NCBI RefSeq assembly: GCF_018332655.1
Contig: NZ_BOQL01000026.1
Coordinates: 186,001 to 250,000, forward strand
DNA: 64,000 nt
Direction: 5' to 3'
Source of the DNA: Actinoplanes auranticolor
Lineage (GTDB): Bacteria > Actinomycetota > Actinomycetes > Mycobacteriales > Micromonosporaceae
Positions 33,467 to 41,225 of the stretch are shown here, one piece after another (position 1 is the first letter of the stretch; every line of letters begins with the position of its first letter). The notes under the pieces were generated by a model. That model had not been told where the DNA came from and did not search any database. It was given only the letters and a program-made list of their open reading frames with translations. The position numbers and the translations under genes were made by a program.

Positions 33467-34474
33467 CAGACGATCGAACTGGGCACCACCGGGCAGCAGG
33501 TCAGCCGGCTCGCGCTCGGTGCCATGCAGATGGGCAACGCCACGAACGAGCAGGACTCGGTGCACATCCTGGACCGCTACCTCGAGGCCGGCGGGTCGTT
33601 CATCGACACGGCGGACTGCTACGAGTGGTGGGCGAGGCGGGACAGCCGGGGCGGGGAGAGCGAAGAGCTGCTCGGCCGCTGGCTGAGCCGGGGCGGCCGG
33701 CGCGACCAGGTCTTCCTGGCCACCAAGGGCAGCGCGCTGCCGGAGTATTCGCCGCAACTGTGGGCCGCCGACGGCACGGCGGACTGGGACCTGGCCCGGC
33801 GCACCTTCGCCGGCGCGGGCGGTGACACGCTGCGGCACGCCCTCGACGGCAGCCTGCGGCGGCTCGGCACCGACCACGTCGACCTCTACTACGTGCACGT
33901 CGACGACCGGGCCACCCCGCTGGAGGAGACCCTGGAGGCGCTGGCCGGCCTGGTGCAGGCCGGGAAGATCCGGTACCTGGGCTGGTCGAACGTACGGACC
34001 TGGCGGCTGGAGCGGATCCGGCAGCTGTGCGACCGGTACGGCTGGCCGGCCCCGGTGGCCCTGCAACAGCAGCACTCGTACCTGCGGCCCCGGCCGGGCA
34101 ACGACAGCGTGTCCATCGTCGGCGCCGAGCAGCTGGACTACCTCGACGCGCACGAGGACCTGACGCTGGTGGCGTACTCGCCGATCCTCAAGGGGATCTA
34201 CGACGATCCGGCCAAGCGGGCCGGGCACTGGGCCATGGAGGCGTACGCCGGGCCGGACACCGACGCGCGGCTCGCGGTGCTGGCCGAGGTGGCCGCCGAG
34301 GCCGGCGTCACGCCGAACCAGCTCGTCCTGGCGTGGCTGATGCAGCAGCCGTCGCCGCGGACGATTCCGCTGGTCGGGCCGCGCACGCCGGAGCAGTTCG
34401 AGGCCGCGCTGCCGGCCCTGGACGTGAAGCTCGGCGAGGACCAGCTGCGCCGCCTGAACGCCGCGGGGGTCTAG
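33464..34474 (+). CDS. Aldo/keto reductase
   Basis: A 336-residue NADPH-dependent aldo/keto reductase of the Tas/YajO group. TIM-barrel marks are SRLALGAMQMGNATNE, FIDTADCYEWWARRDSRGGESEELLGRWL (catalytic Asp and Tyr near 50-60), LATKGSA (catalytic Lys), DHVDLYYVHVDDRATPLEETL (HVDD in place of the more usual HxPD/HWPD), KIRYLGWSNV, VAYSPILKGIYDDPAK and the NADP-binding TIPLVGPRTPEQFEA. The ATG at 33464 is preferred since it falls at the expected transcript start. It probably detoxifies carbonyls under MerR-type induction. It overlaps the convergent kinase gene by 4 bp. Confidence 0.93.
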   Translation: MQTIELGTTGQQVSRLALGAMQMGNATNEQDSVHILDRYLEAGGSFIDTADCYEWWARRDSRGGESEELLGRWLSRGGRRDQVFLATKGSALPEYSPQLWAADGTADWDLARRTFAGAGGDTLRHALDGSLRRLGTDHVDLYYVHVDDRATPLEETLEALAGLVQAGKIRYLGWSNVRTWRLERIRQLCDRYGWPAPVALQQQHSYLRPRPGNDSVSIVGAEQLDYLDAHEDLTLVAYSPILKGIYDDPAKRAGHWAMEAYAGPDTDARLAVLAEVAAEAGVTPNQLVLAWLMQQPSPRTIPLVGPRTPEQFEAALPALDVKLGEDQLRRLNAAGV

Positions 34475-36543
34475 GTCTTGGGGCGGAAGCTGTCGAAGAC
34501 CAGCTGAAGGTCGTCGCGGTCGGCTTTCCAGCGGGCGTCGCTGGTCTCCCACCAGATGCCGTACGCCTGCTTCTTCGAGGTGATGAAGCCGCGGTTGTTG
34601 ACGTGCCGGCGGTTGCTGCCGTTGAAGGTGAACTCCCAGTCCGCGGCCTCCTGCCAGTACGTGACCGGGACGATCTTGATCTCCTTGTAGCCCGGGAAGT
34701 CACCGGTGCGGACCCGGTACTCGGCCTTGCCCTTCCAGTCGGCCACCGGGTCGGGCTGCGGCTTGTTCGTCTGGTCGATGCCGAGCACGCGGCCCTTGCC
34801 GTCGCGGAAGTAGACGATCGAGCCCTTCTTCGACCTCGACCAGCCCTCGGGGACGTAGACCCGGAAGCCGGTGGGGTCGCGGTAGTCACGCCAGCCGGCG
34901 GGCAGCGGCGGCCGGGCCACCGGGGCGCCGGCCCGGCCGGTGGGCGCGCTGGTCGCCGGGGTCCCGCTCGGGGCGGGGTTCGATCCGGCCGGTACGCCGC
35001 CGCCCGGGTTCGCCGGTGCCGTGCCCTGCCCGGTCGGGCCCTGCCCCGGCGTGTCCGGTCCGGTCGTGGCCTGGGCGGATGCCGTCGGCGCGACGGTCGG
35101 GGCGGTCCGGGGTGTCCCGTCGCCGTCGTCGCGCATGGTCCACCAGGTGGTGCCCGCGCCGGCCAGCACCACGGCGGCAACTCCCGCGGCCAGCAGGGAC
35201 CGTCGTCGCCGCGGGGCGGCCGTTGCCGGACCGGGGACCGTCGCGGTGCCGCGCGGGGGCGCGACCTCAGTCTCAGCCTCAGCCTCAGGCTCGGCTTCGG
35301 TGATGGGCCCGGCCCCGGCCTTGTTGACGGGCTGGGCCCTGGCCGCAGCCTCGGTCTCGGCCGCGGTGCCGTTCCCGGCTGCGGTCCCGGTCTGGGCCGC
35401 GGTGTCGGTCTCGGCTGCGGTGTCGGTCTGGGCCGCGGTGTCGGTCCCGGCTACGGTGCCGGTCCCGGCTGCAGTCTCGGCCGCGGAGCCGGTCTCGGTC
35501 TCCGGCACCCGTTGCCGGGGCACGATCGGTGCCGATGCCGCATCCATCGCCGCCGCGGGTGCCGGTTCCGTTTCTGGTGCCGTGGCGGGTGCGGGTCGCA
35601 CGTCCGGTTCTGCCGCCGGGGCCGGAGCGGGCGCTGTGGCTGCGGCCGCAGCCACGACCGGCGCGTCACGGTCGCGGTCGCGCCGGCCGCTCCAGGGCCA
35701 TCGCGGGCGGGGCGGAGCAGCCGCTCCGCCGCTCGCGACCTCCTCCAGCAGCTCCCGGGCCTCTTCCATGTCGACACGCGCGACGGGGTCCTTGCGGAGC
35801 AGCCCGTCGAGGACCGGCGCCAGCACTCCGGCACGGACGGCCGGGGCCGGATCGTCGGAGGCGACCGCGGTCAGCGTCTCGAACACCGACCCGCGCTCGT
35901 ACGGTGAGTGCCCCTCCACCGCCGTGTACAGCGTCGCGCCTAGGGACCACAGGTCGGAGGCGGGCAGCGTGGTGCCGTCGCGGACCCGCTCGGGTGACAT
36001 GTACTGCGGGGAGCCGAGCACCATGTTCGAGCTGGTCACGATGCCGTCGCCCTCGATCGTGGCGATGCCGAAGTCGGTGAGTACCACCCGGCCGTCGTCG
36101 CCCAGCAGCACGTTGGCCGGTTTGACGTCGCGGTGCCGGACGCCGGCCCGGTGCGAGGCGTCGAGAGCGTTCAGCACGGCCAGGCCGATCTCGGCGACCC
36201 GGCGCGGGTCGAGCGGGCCCTCCTGGTCGATGACCTCCTTGAGGGAGCGCGAGTTCACGTACTCCATCACGATCCAGGTGGCGCCGTCCGCTGCGATGAC
36301 GTCGTACACCTGGGCCGCGTTGGGGTGGCTGATCCGGGCCGCGGCCCGGGCCTCCCGCAGCGTGCGCTGCTGCACGGCGTCGCGGTCGCCCTCGGCGATG
36401 TCGTCCGGCGGCACGATCTCCTTGATCGCGACGTCCCGGTCCAGCACCTCGTCGCGGGCCAGGAAGACCCGGCCCATGCCACCGACGCCGAGCGTCTCAC
36501 CCAGCCGGTAGCGACTGGCGACGACGACCGGGCCCACTGTCAT
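34471..36543 (-). CDS. Membrane Ser/Thr protein kinase with extracellular domain
   Basis: A 690-residue Hanks-type kinase. Domain order: kinase (1-about 265) with glycine loop LGVGGMGRVFLARD, Lys in DVAIKEI, HRDVKPANVLL, LTDFGIATIEGDG and SPQYMSPERV; an Ala/Thr/Glu/Pro-rich cytoplasmic linker with six 18-nt repeats; a membrane helix (about 448-470, LLAAGVAAVVLAGAG); a Pro/Thr linker; and a C-terminal extracellular domain of about 130 residues (GFRVYVPEGWSRSKKGSIVYF). It lacks PASTA repeats. Such actinobacterial kinases sense an unknown external signal and phosphorylate proteins inside. No phosphatase or FHA gene adjoins. It is a single gene between the AKR and AraC genes. Confidence 0.94.
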   Translation of the reverse strand: MTVGPVVVASRYRLGETLGVGGMGRVFLARDEVLDRDVAIKEIVPPDDIAEGDRDAVQQRTLREARAAARISHPNAAQVYDVIAADGATWIVMEYVNSRSLKEVIDQEGPLDPRRVAEIGLAVLNALDASHRAGVRHRDVKPANVLLGDDGRVVLTDFGIATIEGDGIVTSSNMVLGSPQYMSPERVRDGTTLPASDLWSLGATLYTAVEGHSPYERGSVFETLTAVASDDPAPAVRAGVLAPVLDGLLRKDPVARVDMEEARELLEEVASGGAAAPPRPRWPWSGRRDRDRDAPVVAAAAATAPAPAPAAEPDVRPAPATAPETEPAPAAAMDAASAPIVPRQRVPETETGSAAETAAGTGTVAGTDTAAQTDTAAETDTAAQTGTAAGNGTAAETEAAARAQPVNKAGAGPITEAEPEAEAETEVAPPRGTATVPGPATAAPRRRRSLLAAGVAAVVLAGAGTTWWTMRDDGDGTPRTAPTVAPTASAQATTGPDTPGQGPTGQGTAPANPGGGVPAGSNPAPSGTPATSAPTGRAGAPVARPPLPAGWRDYRDPTGFRVYVPEGWSRSKKGSIVYFRDGKGRVLGIDQTNKPQPDPVADWKGKAEYRVRTGDFPGYKEIKIVPVTYWQEAADWEFTFNGSNRRHVNNRGFITSKKQAYGIWWETSDARWKADRDDLQLVFDSFRPKT
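35365..35472 (-). repeat. Six tandem 18-nt repeats in the kinase linker
   Basis: An 18-nt unit recurs six times from 35365 to 35472 (for example 35401, 35419, 35437), differing at a few bases. In the kinase it encodes a six-residue A/T/[QE]-type repeat (TDTAAQ, TDTAAE and variants). Copy number probably varies between strains. Confidence 0.8.
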
Positions 36544-36603
36544 GAGCCTCGCTGTACCCTCTCACCGCCCCGGCCACTCCTGCCGCGCGGGTTAGGATGC
36601 GGC

Positions 36604-37485
36604 ATGGACGAGCTCTCGCTGCTCGACACCAACGGGATCCTGCGCCAGCCGTGGATCAGGCCCGAGCGGACCAGCGCGGGTCTGGGCTGGTCCGGTCTCT
36701 ACGTGTCCACCCAGCGTGAGCAGCCGTACCGGGCGGCCTTCGACGCGGCCCGCAGCCACCTCGTCATCCTGCATCTGAACGGGCCGGTCACCGTCCGCCG
36801 CGGCCACCTCGGCCTGACCAGGGCGCGCACGGTCGCCCCGGGCGGCTTCTTCGTGCACCCGGCCGGCAAGGATCTGACCGTGGAGCTGGGCGGCCCCCTC
36901 GACACGGTGCACGTCTATCTCGACGACGAGGCGTTGCAGCGGGGGCAGGACGGGCCGCCGGTCACCCTGGCCGAGGAGCTGGGCGTGGCCGATCCGCTGC
37001 TGGAGCAGCTGGTGCTGGCGCTGGACTCGGTGTTGCGGCAGTGGGAGCCGTCCGCGCGTACCTATGTGGATCAGGTCGGCAGTCTGCTGGCCGCGCAGCT
37101 GGCCCGCCGGCACGGCACCCGGCGGCCGCCGGCCGGGCCGGACGAGGGGCGCCGGCCGGCCGGGCTCAGCGAGCGGCAGCTGGCCCGGGTCCGGGAGCTG
37201 CTCACCGAACGGCTCGGCGAGCCGGTCCCGCTGGCCGACATGGCCGCGGCGGCCGGGCTGAGCGTCAGCCACTTCTCCCGGCAGTTCAAGGCCCGCGTCG
37301 GCCAGGCTCCGCACCAGTATCTGCTGCGGCTGCGGCTCGACACCGCGTGCCGGCTGCTGCGCACCGGCTCGATGCCGATCGCCGCGGTCGCGGACCGCTG
37401 CGGCTTCACCCACCAGGAACATCTCACCCGGGTGATGCGCCGGCATCTGCAGACCACCCCCGCAGCGGTACGCCGCGACGGATGA
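36604..37485 (+). CDS. AraC-family transcriptional regulator of the hydroxyquinol cluster
   Basis: A 293-residue AraC/XylS regulator with an N-terminal cupin-like domain (LYVSTQREQPYRAAFDAARSHLVILHLNG; the HxxPG-type stretch GGFFVHPAGKDLTVEL) and a C-terminal double helix-turn-helix (residues about 195-290: LADMAAAAGLSVSHFSRQFKARVGQAPHQYLLRLRLDTACRLLR and IAAVADRCGFTHQEHLTRVMRRHLQTTPAAVRR). It lies 75 bp before the MAR-HQD fusion gene, with two 21-bp-spaced direct repeats between, so it is the likely activator of that operon, responding to an aromatic inducer such as resorcinol (inference). TAGGAT 5 bp before the ATG also contains the only ribosome-like AGGA. Confidence 0.9.
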   Translation: MDELSLLDTNGILRQPWIRPERTSAGLGWSGLYVSTQREQPYRAAFDAARSHLVILHLNGPVTVRRGHLGLTRARTVAPGGFFVHPAGKDLTVELGGPLDTVHVYLDDEALQRGQDGPPVTLAEELGVADPLLEQLVLALDSVLRQWEPSARTYVDQVGSLLAAQLARRHGTRRPPAGPDEGRRPAGLSERQLARVRELLTERLGEPVPLADMAAAAGLSVSHFSRQFKARVGQAPHQYLLRLRLDTACRLLRTGSMPIAAVADRCGFTHQEHLTRVMRRHLQTTPAAVRRDG

Positions 37486-37560: not shown

Positions 37561-39450
37561 ATGACGTCGTTCGCGTACACGTCCGGCCCGGCCCGGGTGG
37601 TCTTCGGTCCCGGGGTGCTGGATCGGCTGCCGGAGGAGGTGCGCCGCCTCGGCCGCAGCCGGGCGCTGGTGGTCTCCGGCGCGGGCACAGCCGGTGCCGC
37701 CGCGCAGGCGGCCGCGAACCTCGGCCCGCTGCTGGCCGGGCACTTCGCCGGCGCCGCGATGCACACTCCGGTCGACGTCACGGCGGAGGCGCTGGAGCTG
37801 GTCCGCAGCCTCGACGCCGACTGCCTGGTCTCGGTGGGCGGCGGCTCGGCCACCGGGCTGGGTAAGGCGCTGTCGGTGCGCACCGGGCTGCCGCAGATCG
37901 CCGTGCCGAGCACGTACGCCGGTTCCGAGGTCACCCCGGTGCTCGGCGAGACGGACGGGACCGGCAAGACGACCCGGTCGGCGCCGGAGATCCTCCCCGA
38001 GACGGTCCTGTACGACGTGCGGCTGACCCTCGGCCTGCCGGTGCCGCTCTCGGTCACCAGCGGGGTCAACGCGATGGCGCACGCGGTGGAGGCGCTCTAC
38101 TCGCCGGACGCCAACCCGGCCACCGGCGCGCTGGCCCGGCGGGCGATCACGCTGCTGGCCGGGGCGCTGCCCGGCATCGTCGCCGATCCCGGGGACGTCG
38201 ACGCCCGCTCCGACGCTCTCACCGGCGCCTGGCTGGCCGGCATCTGCCTGGGCACCGTACGGATGGGACCGCACCACAAGCTCTGCCACATGCTGGGCGG
38301 CTCGTACGGCCTGCCGCACGCTCCCACCCACACGGTCATGCTGCCGCAGGTCATGGCCCACCAGGCCGCGAAGGCCCCGGAGGCGATGCGGGTGGTGGCC
38401 GAGGCGCTCAAGGTCCGCGACGCCCCCTCCGGCCTGTACGACCTGATCACCTCGTGGGGCGGCCCGACCTCGTTGCGGGAGCTGGGCCTGACCGCCGGCG
38501 AGCTCGACGACGCGGCGCGACGGGTGGACATCGACGGGGTCCGCGCGCTGCTCGGGGTCGCGTACCAGGGCACCCGCCCGCCCGGACCCGCCGCCGTGCC
38601 GGACTTCAGCGCGCTCACCGGCCAGGTCCTGGCCAGTTTCGCCGGCGCGCCCGATCCCCGGGTCCGCGCCCTGGTCACCGACCTGGTCAAGGTCCTGCAC
38701 GACTACACCAACCGCAACGACCTCACCCAGCAGGAGTGGGAGTACGCCGTCGACTTCCTCACCCGCACCGGCCAGCTCTGCTCGCCCACCCGCCAGGAGT
38801 TCGTGCTGCTCTCCGACACCCTCGGTGTGTCGAGCATGGTCGACCTGCTGAGCAACTCGCGTACCCCGCAGACCACGCCGTCGGCCGTGCTCGGGCCGTT
38901 CTACGTGCCCGGGCCGCCGCCGGAGCCGCCCGGCGCGGACATCGCCGGTGGCCTGCCCGGCACGCCACTGTGGGCCGACGTGCTGATCACCGACGTGGCG
39001 GGCGGGCCGGTGGCCGGGGCGGTGGTCGACGTCTGGCAGTCCAACGACGACGGTTTCTACGACGTGCAGCTCCCGGAGCAGGCCGGGCCGGTGCTGCGGG
39101 CCCGGTTCACCAGCGACGACGACGGCCGGGTGCGCTTCTGGTCGATCCTGCCGTCGGAGTACCCGATCCCGGACGACGGCCCGGTCGGGCAGATGCTGGC
39201 GGCGACCGGCCGGCACCAGTACCGCGCGCCGCACCTGCACTTCATGATCAGCGCGCCGGGTTACCGCCGCCTGGTCACCCAGTTGTTCGTCGCCGGCGGC
39301 GCGTACCTGGACTCCGACACCGTGTTCGGGGTCAAGGACGAGCTGATCGTCGACTTCGCTCCCGGCGCCGGCACCCCGCCGGACGGCCGTGCGGTCGAGC
39401 AGTGGCACCAGGTGTCGTACACCTTCCGGATCGCCGAGGAGAAGCCGTGA
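37561..39450 (+). CDS. Maleylacetate reductase-hydroxyquinol 1,2-dioxygenase fusion
   Basis: A 629-residue two-domain enzyme. Residues 1-about 345 are an iron-type alcohol dehydrogenase of the maleylacetate reductase group: VFGPGVLDRLPEEV, VSVGGGSATGLGKALSV, VPSTYAGSEVTPVLGET, GVNAMAHAVEALYSP, MGPHHKLCHMLGGSYGLPHAPTH. Residues about 350-629 are an intradiol dioxygenase (hydroxyquinol type): NRNDLTQQEWEYAVDFLTRTG, LGPFYVPG, PLWADVLITD, VVDVWQSNDDGFYD. Its four iron ligands are intact: Tyr448, Tyr534, His558, His560. It thus covers two steps: ring opening of hydroxyquinol to maleylacetate, then reduction to 3-oxoadipate. ATG 37561 follows GGGAGG. GTGA overlap couples it to the hydroxylase gene. 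The two enzymes are usually separate genes. No frameshift is needed; the join is continuous. Confidence 0.93.
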   Translation: MTSFAYTSGPARVVFGPGVLDRLPEEVRRLGRSRALVVSGAGTAGAAAQAAANLGPLLAGHFAGAAMHTPVDVTAEALELVRSLDADCLVSVGGGSATGLGKALSVRTGLPQIAVPSTYAGSEVTPVLGETDGTGKTTRSAPEILPETVLYDVRLTLGLPVPLSVTSGVNAMAHAVEALYSPDANPATGALARRAITLLAGALPGIVADPGDVDARSDALTGAWLAGICLGTVRMGPHHKLCHMLGGSYGLPHAPTHTVMLPQVMAHQAAKAPEAMRVVAEALKVRDAPSGLYDLITSWGGPTSLRELGLTAGELDDAARRVDIDGVRALLGVAYQGTRPPGPAAVPDFSALTGQVLASFAGAPDPRVRALVTDLVKVLHDYTNRNDLTQQEWEYAVDFLTRTGQLCSPTRQEFVLLSDTLGVSSMVDLLSNSRTPQTTPSAVLGPFYVPGPPPEPPGADIAGGLPGTPLWADVLITDVAGGPVAGAVVDVWQSNDDGFYDVQLPEQAGPVLRARFTSDDDGRVRFWSILPSEYPIPDDGPVGQMLAATGRHQYRAPHLHFMISAPGYRRLVTQLFVAGGAYLDSDTVFGVKDELIVDFAPGAGTPPDGRAVEQWHQVSYTFRIAEEKP

Positions 39451-41225
39451 CAGACGTGGTCGAGACCGACGTGCTCATCGTCGGCAGCGGGCCGGCCGGC
39501 AGTGCGGCGGCGATGCTGCTCAGCACGTACGGAGTGCCGAACATCATGGTCACCAAGTACAGCCGGCTGGCCGACACACCCCGCGCGCACATCACCAACC
39601 AGCGCACGATGGAGGTGCTGCGCGACGCCGGCCTGGAGGAACAGGTGGTCGCGCTGGCCACCCCGCAGCACCTGATGGGGCAGACGCCGTTCGTCTCGGC
39701 GCTCAACGGCGAGGAACTGGGCCGGCTGCACACCTGGTACACCCATCCGGCCCGGCAGGCCGACCACGACCTGGCCTCGCCCACCGCGATGTGTGACATG
39801 CCGCAGCACCTGATGGAGCCGGTGCTGGCCGGGGCGGCCACCGCCCGCGGCACCCACCTGCGCTACGACACCGAGTACCTGTCGCTGACCCAGGACGATG
39901 ACGGGGTCACCGCCACCGTGCGCGACCGGCTGCGCGGCGACGAGTACCGGATCCGCGCGAAGTACCTGATCGGCGCGGACGGCGGGCGCAGCAGGGTGGC
40001 CGAGGACATCGGCCTGCCGATGGTCGGCCGGATGGGCGTGGCCGGCAGCATCAACATCGTCTTCGAGGCCGACCTGACCCGCTACGTCGCGCACCGGCCC
40101 AGCACCCTCTACTGGGTGCTGCAGACCGGCGCCGACGTGGGCGGCATCGGCATGGGCCTGGTGCGCTGCGTCCGGCCCTGGCACGAGTGGCTGATCGTCT
40201 GGGGCTACGACATCGACGGTGAGCCGCCGGACCTCACCGAAGCGTACGCCCGGCACATCGCCCACCAGCTGATCGGCGACGACTCGGTGCCGGTCACCAT
40301 CAAGTCGTCCTCGGCCTGGACGGTCAACCACCTCTACGCCGAGCGGTACCAGCAGGGCCGGGTGTTCTGCGCCGGCGACGCGGTGCACCGGCACCCGCCG
40401 TCGAACGGGCTGGGCTCCAACACCTCGATCCAGGACGCGTACAACCTGGCCTGGAAGCTGAAGCTGGTGCTGTCCGGGGCAGCCGGGCCCGGGCTGCTGG
40501 AGTCCTACAGCGCCGAGCGGGCCCCGGTCGGCGCGCAGATCGTCGAGCGGGCCAACCGCAGCATCGGCGAGACCGGCCGGATCTTCCAGGCGCTGGGCCT
40601 GCTCTCGACCGAGGACCCGGAGCAGATGCGGGCGAACATGGACGCCCGCAAGCTGCCCGGCGACGGCCCGGAGAAACAGCGCCAGCTGCTGCGCGAGGCC
40701 ATCGCGTTCAAGGACTACGAGTTCAACACCCACGGCGTCGAGCTGGACCAGCGCTACCGCTCGGCGGCGGTGGTCCCCGACGGTACGCAGCCGCCGGCGA
40801 ACCCGCGCGACGAGGAACTGTTCCACCACCCGACGACCTGGCCCGGCGCCAAGGTGCCGCACGCCTGGCTGGGCCACGGCGCCGAGCGGATCTCCACCCT
40901 CGATCTGGGCGGCCACGGCCGGTTCATGCTGCTGACCGGGATCGGCGGCGAGGCGTGGGTGGCGGCGGCCGCCACGCTCGCCACCGCCCTGGGGGTCCCG
41001 CTGAGTGCGGCGACGATCGGCCCCGGGGCCGGCTACGAGGACCTGTACGGCGACTGGGCCCGGCTGCGCGAGGTCGGCGACACCGGCTGCGTCCTGCTGC
41101 GCCCGGACAACTACGTGGCGTTCCGCAGCCCGGGCCTGCCCGCCGATCCGGAACAGGTCCTCGGCGCGGCGCTGCACCGGGTACTGGGCCGCGACCAGGG
41201 CCTCGGTGGATCATCAGCGCCGTAA
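39447..41225 (+). CDS. FAD-dependent aromatic monooxygenase (probable resorcinol hydroxylase)
   Basis: A 592-residue flavoprotein hydroxylase of the PHBH/phenol-hydroxylase class. FAD sites: VLIVGSGPAGSAAAMLLST (dinucleotide fold, residues 8-26), LIGADGGRSRV (DG motif) and FCAGDAVHRHPPSNGLGSNTSIQDAYNLAWKL (GD motif). The C-terminal 170 residues form the thioredoxin-like domain found in phenol 2-monooxygenases. It starts at a GTG overlapping the fusion-gene stop (GTGA). Next to hydroxyquinol dioxygenase and maleylacetate reductase it most likely makes hydroxyquinol from resorcinol or a related phenol with NAD(P)H and oxygen. The exact phenol is inference. It ends the operon. Confidence 0.9.
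   Translation: MTDVVETDVLIVGSGPAGSAAAMLLSTYGVPNIMVTKYSRLADTPRAHITNQRTMEVLRDAGLEEQVVALATPQHLMGQTPFVSALNGEELGRLHTWYTHPARQADHDLASPTAMCDMPQHLMEPVLAGAATARGTHLRYDTEYLSLTQDDDGVTATVRDRLRGDEYRIRAKYLIGADGGRSRVAEDIGLPMVGRMGVAGSINIVFEADLTRYVAHRPSTLYWVLQTGADVGGIGMGLVRCVRPWHEWLIVWGYDIDGEPPDLTEAYARHIAHQLIGDDSVPVTIKSSSAWTVNHLYAERYQQGRVFCAGDAVHRHPPSNGLGSNTSIQDAYNLAWKLKLVLSGAAGPGLLESYSAERAPVGAQIVERANRSIGETGRIFQALGLLSTEDPEQMRANMDARKLPGDGPEKQRQLLREAIAFKDYEFNTHGVELDQRYRSAAVVPDGTQPPANPRDEELFHHPTTWPGAKVPHAWLGHGAERISTLDLGGHGRFMLLTGIGGEAWVAAAATLATALGVPLSAATIGPGAGYEDLYGDWARLREVGDTGCVLLRPDNYVAFRSPGLPADPEQVLGAALHRVLGRDQGLGGSSAP

Follow-up and report, generated by a model that had tools for sequence, protein, structure and literature searches.

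A maleylacetate reductase-hydroxyquinol 1,2-dioxygenase fusion in Actinoplanes auranticolor and repeated loop deletion in its fused clade

Can two consecutive enzymes of aromatic breakdown be joined in one polypeptide and both keep working, even where one of them has lost a loop? The question is raised by a gene of Actinoplanes auranticolor that lies within a stretch of 64,000 nucleotides (contig NZ_BOQL01000026.1, positions 186,001 to 250,000 of the forward strand; "the window" below) and encodes a maleylacetate reductase (MAR) followed by a hydroxyquinol 1,2-dioxygenase (HQ12DO). The fusion, the identity of its domains, the conserved catalytic residues, synteny and purifying selection were directly established, and from them we infer that the protein is probably a bifunctional catabolic enzyme of the hydroxyquinol route to 3-oxoadipate; its activities, its substrate and any benefit of tethering are predictions from sequence. 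A preliminary description of the locus had placed both enzymes in a single gene at 37561, and this stands: the open reading frame (ORF) is uninterrupted over 629 amino acids and carries both sets of Pfam domains (Fe-ADH/ADH_Fe_C at residues 10-320, Dioxygenase_N/Dioxygenase_C at residues 365-611).

The best solved relative of the N-terminal half is the MAR 3w5s (residues 2-340, 3.8e-98), and that of the C-terminal half is the HQ12DO 1tmx (residues 352-622, 1.2e-73). The MAR half of the predicted model superposes on 3jzd with a VIA-align Z of 51.8 and a root-mean-square deviation of 1.3 over 335 residues (the VIA-align rows concern this half; the dioxygenase half was found in Foldseek rows). 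The dioxygenase half scored 251.8 bits against 1tmx, compared with 123.6 for chlorocatechol 1,2-dioxygenase 1s9a and 119.6 for catechol 1,2-dioxygenase 2azq. By alignment to 1tmx, its predicted metal residues are Tyr500 (in GFYDV), Tyr534, His558 and His560, at the Tyr/Tyr/His/His positions that we take to be the iron ligands of 1tmx. Three of the four ligands named in the preliminary description are therefore retained, while its Tyr448 (in GPFY) is replaced by Tyr500. Among 60 fused rows, Tyr500 is kept in all and Tyr534, His558 and His560 in 59 each. Streptomyces spinoverrucosus has two fusion loci on one contig (L013 and L039), the second encoding a truncated 551-residue protein, and our guess is that this copy accounts for the exceptions.

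In the MAR half, substrate-binding residues H174, H238, H239, K240, H243 and H253 were assigned by motif. All five histidines are kept in 60/60 fused rows; at position 240, 56 rows have Lys and four have Arg. Mutating His172 or Lys238 of PcpE abolished activity, according to PMC5741723, and the motif match of H174- and K240-type residues to these two favours MAR activity. PMC5125639 describes the MAR subfamily as metal-free, with Asn in place of the metal-ligand Asp; the Asn at that position in the fused proteins (N170, 60/60 rows) fits. Taken by feature, the N-terminal domain has the Fe-ADH fold, the HHKxxH motif, the essential His and Lys and the Asn of the MAR subfamily, and the C-terminal domain has Dioxygenase_N and Dioxygenase_C, HQ12DO-like best matches and the Tyr/Tyr/His/His set of HQ12DOs.

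The same two-domain order, which the preliminary description had proposed to seek in other genomes, recurs there, but over a narrow taxonomic range. A genome_contigs search with the MAR-first query found 544 relatives, of which the best 80 were kept: both domains stand in one stop-free frame in 46, all Actinomycetota by record title, and in separate genes in 34 (one, L049, being a broken copy in a metagenome-assembled genome). In all, 60 of 117 loci have the two domains in a frame that no stop interrupts, and removal of five copies, three listed as such and two from identical pairs, left 53 distinct proteins of a main type (the window's included) and two of a second type. The same-genus genome G119 carries the fusion at 79% identity. 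Of 200 genomes sampled from the window's family, at least 10 (the window's own included) carry the main type and at least two the second; in 396 genomes spread evenly over the phylum, 18 matched at 1e-60 (three candidates scored per genome), and a one-piece match over both domains was found only in the window's own genome. On a tree of MAR sequences the main fused type forms a single clade of 55 rows with support of 100/100, and a second, independent fusion is represented by L094 and L104, which stand beside nine separate pairs of the same family. The fusion arose at least twice. Separate genes stand MAR first in 34/34 genome_contigs pairs, an order that the MAR-first query favours; dioxygenase-first pairs also exist, four of them recorded as such (L098, L110-L112) and three by coordinates (G222, G327, G381). 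The domain order, earlier described as reversed, is so with respect to the chemistry, but it matches one of the two gene orders of unfused pairs.

The gene directly downstream, whose GTG start overlaps the TGA of the fusion (GTGA), is the hydroxylase that the preliminary description had recognized; GAGGAG stands five bases upstream of its start. It has FAD_binding_3 and Rng_hyd_C domains and a near full-length match to class A flavin aromatic hydroxylases (HbpA/TfdB-like). Relatives of this enzyme act ortho to a phenolic hydroxyl, and ortho-hydroxylation yields hydroxyquinol only from resorcinol or hydroquinone, so that the substrate, formerly given as "a phenol", can presumably be narrowed to these two. 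The hydroxylase would add a hydroxyl group ortho to the phenolic hydroxyl of resorcinol or hydroquinone to give hydroxyquinol, the C-terminal dioxygenase domain would open the hydroxyquinol ring by intradiol cleavage at a Tyr2His2 iron(III) centre to give maleylacetate, and the N-terminal MAR domain would use NAD(P)H, and no metal, in reducing maleylacetate to 3-oxoadipate; 3-oxoadipate would then join the ordinary pca route of the genome. Three predicted steps on two polypeptides, as previously proposed, find good support in homology and in synteny. A hydroxylase homologue lies directly downstream in 36 of the 46 fused genome_contigs loci; in three more (L033, L041, L054) it is upstream, inside the fetched flank. 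An AraC homologue occurs on one side or the other in the flanks of 36/46 (L025 and L039 being partial matches), and the AraC-family protein encoded upstream of the fusion probably controls the operon.

Further downstream genes in other genomes point to 3-oxoadipate as the product. By annotation, the Streptomyces cadmiisoli row reads fusion, flavin adenine dinucleotide (FAD) monooxygenase, coenzyme A (CoA) transferase A/B and acetyl-CoA C-acyltransferase; homologues of both CoA transferase genes follow the fusion in L009, L011, L020 and L039, and a thiolase homologue in L011, L020 and L039. Directly after the window's hydroxylase gene comes a CBS-domain gene rather than genes for a CoA transferase or a thiolase. 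On a separate contig (C24) the genome has a pca-like cluster (L135:4578-11940) with an FAD monooxygenase, two CoA transferase subunits, two Dioxygenase_C proteins, a lyase, an alpha/beta hydrolase, a carboxymuconolactone decarboxylase and an IclR protein, the pca assignment being our interpretation of this domain content. A PcaF-like thiolase in the genome scores 504 bits, below the 597-bit cut-off of its family, which none of 14 control genomes reached. The CoA transferase subunits of the cluster are a divergent PF01144 pair (79 and 127 bits); in 15 of 20 genomes searched, one or more members score above 220 bits, and G119, a single contig, has only a similar divergent pair.

The preliminary description missed a loop loss in the MAR domain, the one feature that bears on a domain being inactive. 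In an alignment of fused proteins, the window's protein is without an ATATPYPNPRE-like segment near residue 321. The loop is gone from 16/60 fused rows, or 14 of the 53 distinct main-type proteins, and is full-length in 48/48 separate MARs scored (NP in 47, SP in L050); it is also present in 18 further distinct separate MARs, five of which have other letters for NP, and one separate MAR (L147) ends ahead of the segment. A loop with a PYxNPR-like segment is a feature drawn from this sample rather than a published defining feature of MARs, and the window's protein lacks it. The model of a loop-keeping protein from Dactylosporangium vinaceum (L038) has a helix, a 12-residue link and a helix at this place, whereas that of the window's protein has a helix, a 5-residue link and a helix, with a mean predicted local distance difference test score of at least 86 in those blocks in both models.

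On a tree of the dioxygenase domain, from which the columns of the trait are absent, the 14 loop-less rows among 52 need three changes, all three forced by starred branches. An approximately unbiased test rejected a single clade of loop-less rows on this tree (P = 6e-8; the group was specified with the MAR tree already in view), and a single deletion event is rejected by the dioxygenase tree and the test together. The MAR tree, which includes the trait's own columns, needs four changes, three of them forced. Because separate MARs have the loop, the three changes are read as three deletions, all within the main fused clade; as drawn, the loop-less groups are the window with G119, a Paractinoplanes group and a Kibdelosporangium/Actinosynnema/Rhodococcus rhodnii group. 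The main fused clade makes up 38% of the length of the MAR tree and the chance of three out of three deletions falling there is 0.055, which is only suggestive that fusion favours loop loss.

Several observations weigh against a working bifunctional enzyme feeding a complete route. The fetched flanks of seven of the 46 fused genome_contigs loci have no hydroxylase (L013, L018, L025, L026, L035, L037, L064). In the window's genome the TIGR02429 profile found no match above its cut-off (43 bits), the S. cadmiisoli CoA transferase A used as query found no match, and the divergent pair of the pca-like cluster is the sole CoA transferase found. The window's MAR is without a loop that separate MARs keep. 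The median ratio of MAR to dioxygenase amino-acid change is 1.59 over 32 loop-less pairs versus 1.08 over 193 loop-keeping pairs, and within Paractinoplanes the MAR/dioxygenase ratio of nonsynonymous rates (dN) is 1.68 in 21 loop-less pairs versus 1.36 in 10 loop-keeping ones, so a partial relaxation of selection on the MAR domain is possible. A missing lower pathway was at first suspected from the TIGR02429 score and the empty CoA transferase A search; it was dropped once the pca-like cluster had been found.

The MAR domain might instead be impaired or dead in the loop-less lineages, the window's included, its role being mainly that of a folded partner and maleylacetate being processed elsewhere. 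Deletion of the loop in fused proteins and in none of the 48 scored or 18 further separate MARs would fit, as would the faster change of MAR than of dioxygenase in loop-less pairs. Even so, we regard a dead MAR as improbable, as conserved residues and selection oppose it: every substrate-binding histidine is kept, the genome has no second close MAR (the next match after the fusion is at 2e-19 and 32% identity), the model retains the MAR fold, though functional defects can escape a model, and the ratio of nonsynonymous to synonymous rates (dN/dS) is far below 1. Between the window and G119, dN/dS is 0.28 for MAR (95% bootstrap 0.20-0.38) and 0.22 for the dioxygenase (0.14-0.31); in the loop-less Kibdelosporangium group the medians of 10 pairs are as low as 0.14 and 0.12, respectively. 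In Paractinoplanes, MAR dN/dS is 0.34 without the loop versus 0.23 with it, but values up to 0.35 occur in Amycolatopsis, whose MARs keep the loop; a relaxation, if there is one, is thus mild and not peculiar to loop loss. Because its binding residues are conserved and its dN/dS is about 0.28, the MAR domain is probably still active, and the loop is taken to be dispensable in the fused context.

Why the loop could be spared is a separate matter. Tethering, or contact with the dioxygenase, may have replaced the job of the PYPNPR loop. On this view its three separate deletions, confined in this sample to fused proteins, would have removed a gate or a substrate-capturing lid that can be dispensed with once maleylacetate is delivered locally. 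We consider this replacement unlikely. The loop site presumably lies near the active site, and a literature search on the role of the corresponding FucO residues found nothing.

The fusion would supply the producer and the consumer of maleylacetate in a 1:1 ratio and keep them near each other through a flexible linker. Linkers measure 12-36 residues over the 53 distinct main-type rows, which suggests a flexible tether, and 21 and 154 residues in the second type. The 154-residue linker belongs to L104 (L104:55-2673, in genome G190), is rich in Val, Gly and Ser repeats and is accompanied by a long RGEGSARGEGS-like tail; the 21-residue linker is that of its sister L094. Predicted template modelling scores of 0.65 and 0.70 for the two models leave the domain arrangement unfixed. 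Direct channelling of maleylacetate between the two active sites, with little escape, is encouraged by the consecutive steps, by at least two independent fusions and by the precedent of AdhE, a fused Fe-ADH able, within its ordered assembly, to cope with a reactive intermediate. Set against the linker lengths, the loose arrangement of the domains and the finding that none of the 60 solved-structure chains listed as matches spans both domains, it seems quite unlikely, and simple tethering appears the safer reading. An artefact, whether a stop codon lost near residue 345 by sequencing error, the event that the preliminary description had named as fatal to the fusion, or two genes read as one, is suggested by nothing beyond the commonness of long open frames in a high-GC window and is effectively ruled out by independent genomes with the same stop-free fusion (the 46 genome_contigs relatives, G119 and the fully supported main clade).

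The remaining features of the locus are collected in the table. The AraC gene, whose start was inferred from an MDELSLL start common to the G119 homologue, ends 75 bp ahead of the fusion gene, and GGGAGG stands eight bases ahead of the fusion's ATG. Beside the AraC gene, a Ser/Thr protein kinase-like ORF lies on the minus strand (window 34471-36543), with HRDVKPANVLL in its translation and a low-complexity middle rich in Ala, Glu and Thr. Elsewhere, a linear plasmid of Streptomyces sp. NBC_01230 (L115) carries the fusion gene close to transposase genes, without an adjoining hydroxylase.

Table. Features of the fusion locus (window positions)
Feature	Position	Strand	Basis
AraC-family regulator, 293 aa	36604..37485	+	HTH_18 6.8e-23, HTH_AraC 5.9e-20 (scanned as 36550-37485)
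Fusion gene, MAR + HQ12DO, 629 aa	37561..39450	+	Uninterrupted ORF, ATG 37561, stop ends 39450
MAR domain, residues 1-340	37561..38580	+	Pfam, best solved relatives, residues, structure superposition
Place of deleted loop, about residues 311-327	38491..38541	+	Helix 312-321, 5-residue link, helix 327-336
Inter-domain linker, about residues 341-356	38581..38628	+	Linker comparison
HQ12DO domain, residues 351-629	38611..39447	+	Y500, Y534, H558, H560
Flavin hydroxylase, 592 aa	39447..41225	+	FAD_binding_3 1.5e-115; 2-hydroxybiphenyl 3-monooxygenase 5brt 5.4e-181; 2,4-dichlorophenol 6-monooxygenase 6u0p 2e-156; start GTG 39447

Should tethering or channelling of maleylacetate prove true of the fused protein, nature would have provided a compact module for breaking down aromatics, and studies of how fused enzymes handle metabolites would gain a new case; otherwise this is a routine catabolic operon of an ordinary pathway. 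The two independent origins of the fusion, together with the recurrent loss of the loop inside the main fused clade, offer natural pairs for comparison, and, were the loop's job indeed taken over in the fused proteins, the natural deletions could serve directly to test for tethering or channelling.

The fused architecture is already known to genome annotators, RefSeq-derived annotation of Streptomyces plasmid records naming a "maleylacetate reductase and hydroxyquinol 1,2-dioxygenase domain-containing protein"; the window's protein is of this type, a single unbroken chain in which the MAR domain precedes the dioxygenase domain. Literature searches, mostly at listing level, found no published description of such a fusion, and a mention inside unopened texts is possible; the available parts of PMC5741723, PMC5125639, PMC13101518 and PMC10815724 describe neither the fusion nor the repeated loop deletion. 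New here are the two or more origins of the fusion and the repeated deletion of the loop in the fused clade. S. cadmiisoli WP_112443237.1 has the same two domains in the same order on one chain, followed by an FAD-dependent monooxygenase; the window's protein is 66% identical to it and differs in being without the PYPNPR loop and without directly downstream CoA transferase and thiolase genes. With the unfused MARs GraC (3w5s), 3hl0 and 3jzd it shares about 50% identity and the fold, and with these and PcpE the HHKLCH motif, but the window's MAR is fused at its C terminus and has a shortened inter-helix loop. Its dioxygenase has the domain arrangement of the unfused HQ12DOs 1tmx, PnpC (3n9t) and TsdC (8r2x), with aligned metal residues for 1tmx, and unlike them bears an N-terminal MAR. 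The hydroxylase matches 2-hydroxybiphenyl 3-monooxygenase and 2,4-dichlorophenol 6-monooxygenase over its full length, whereas the operon points instead to resorcinol or hydroquinone as putative substrate. A parallel in design is AdhE, in which a reductase of the Fe-ADH fold is likewise fused to the enzyme that makes its substrate and whose chains match the MAR half; there, however, the partner is non-homologous and the Fe-ADH part is C-terminal.

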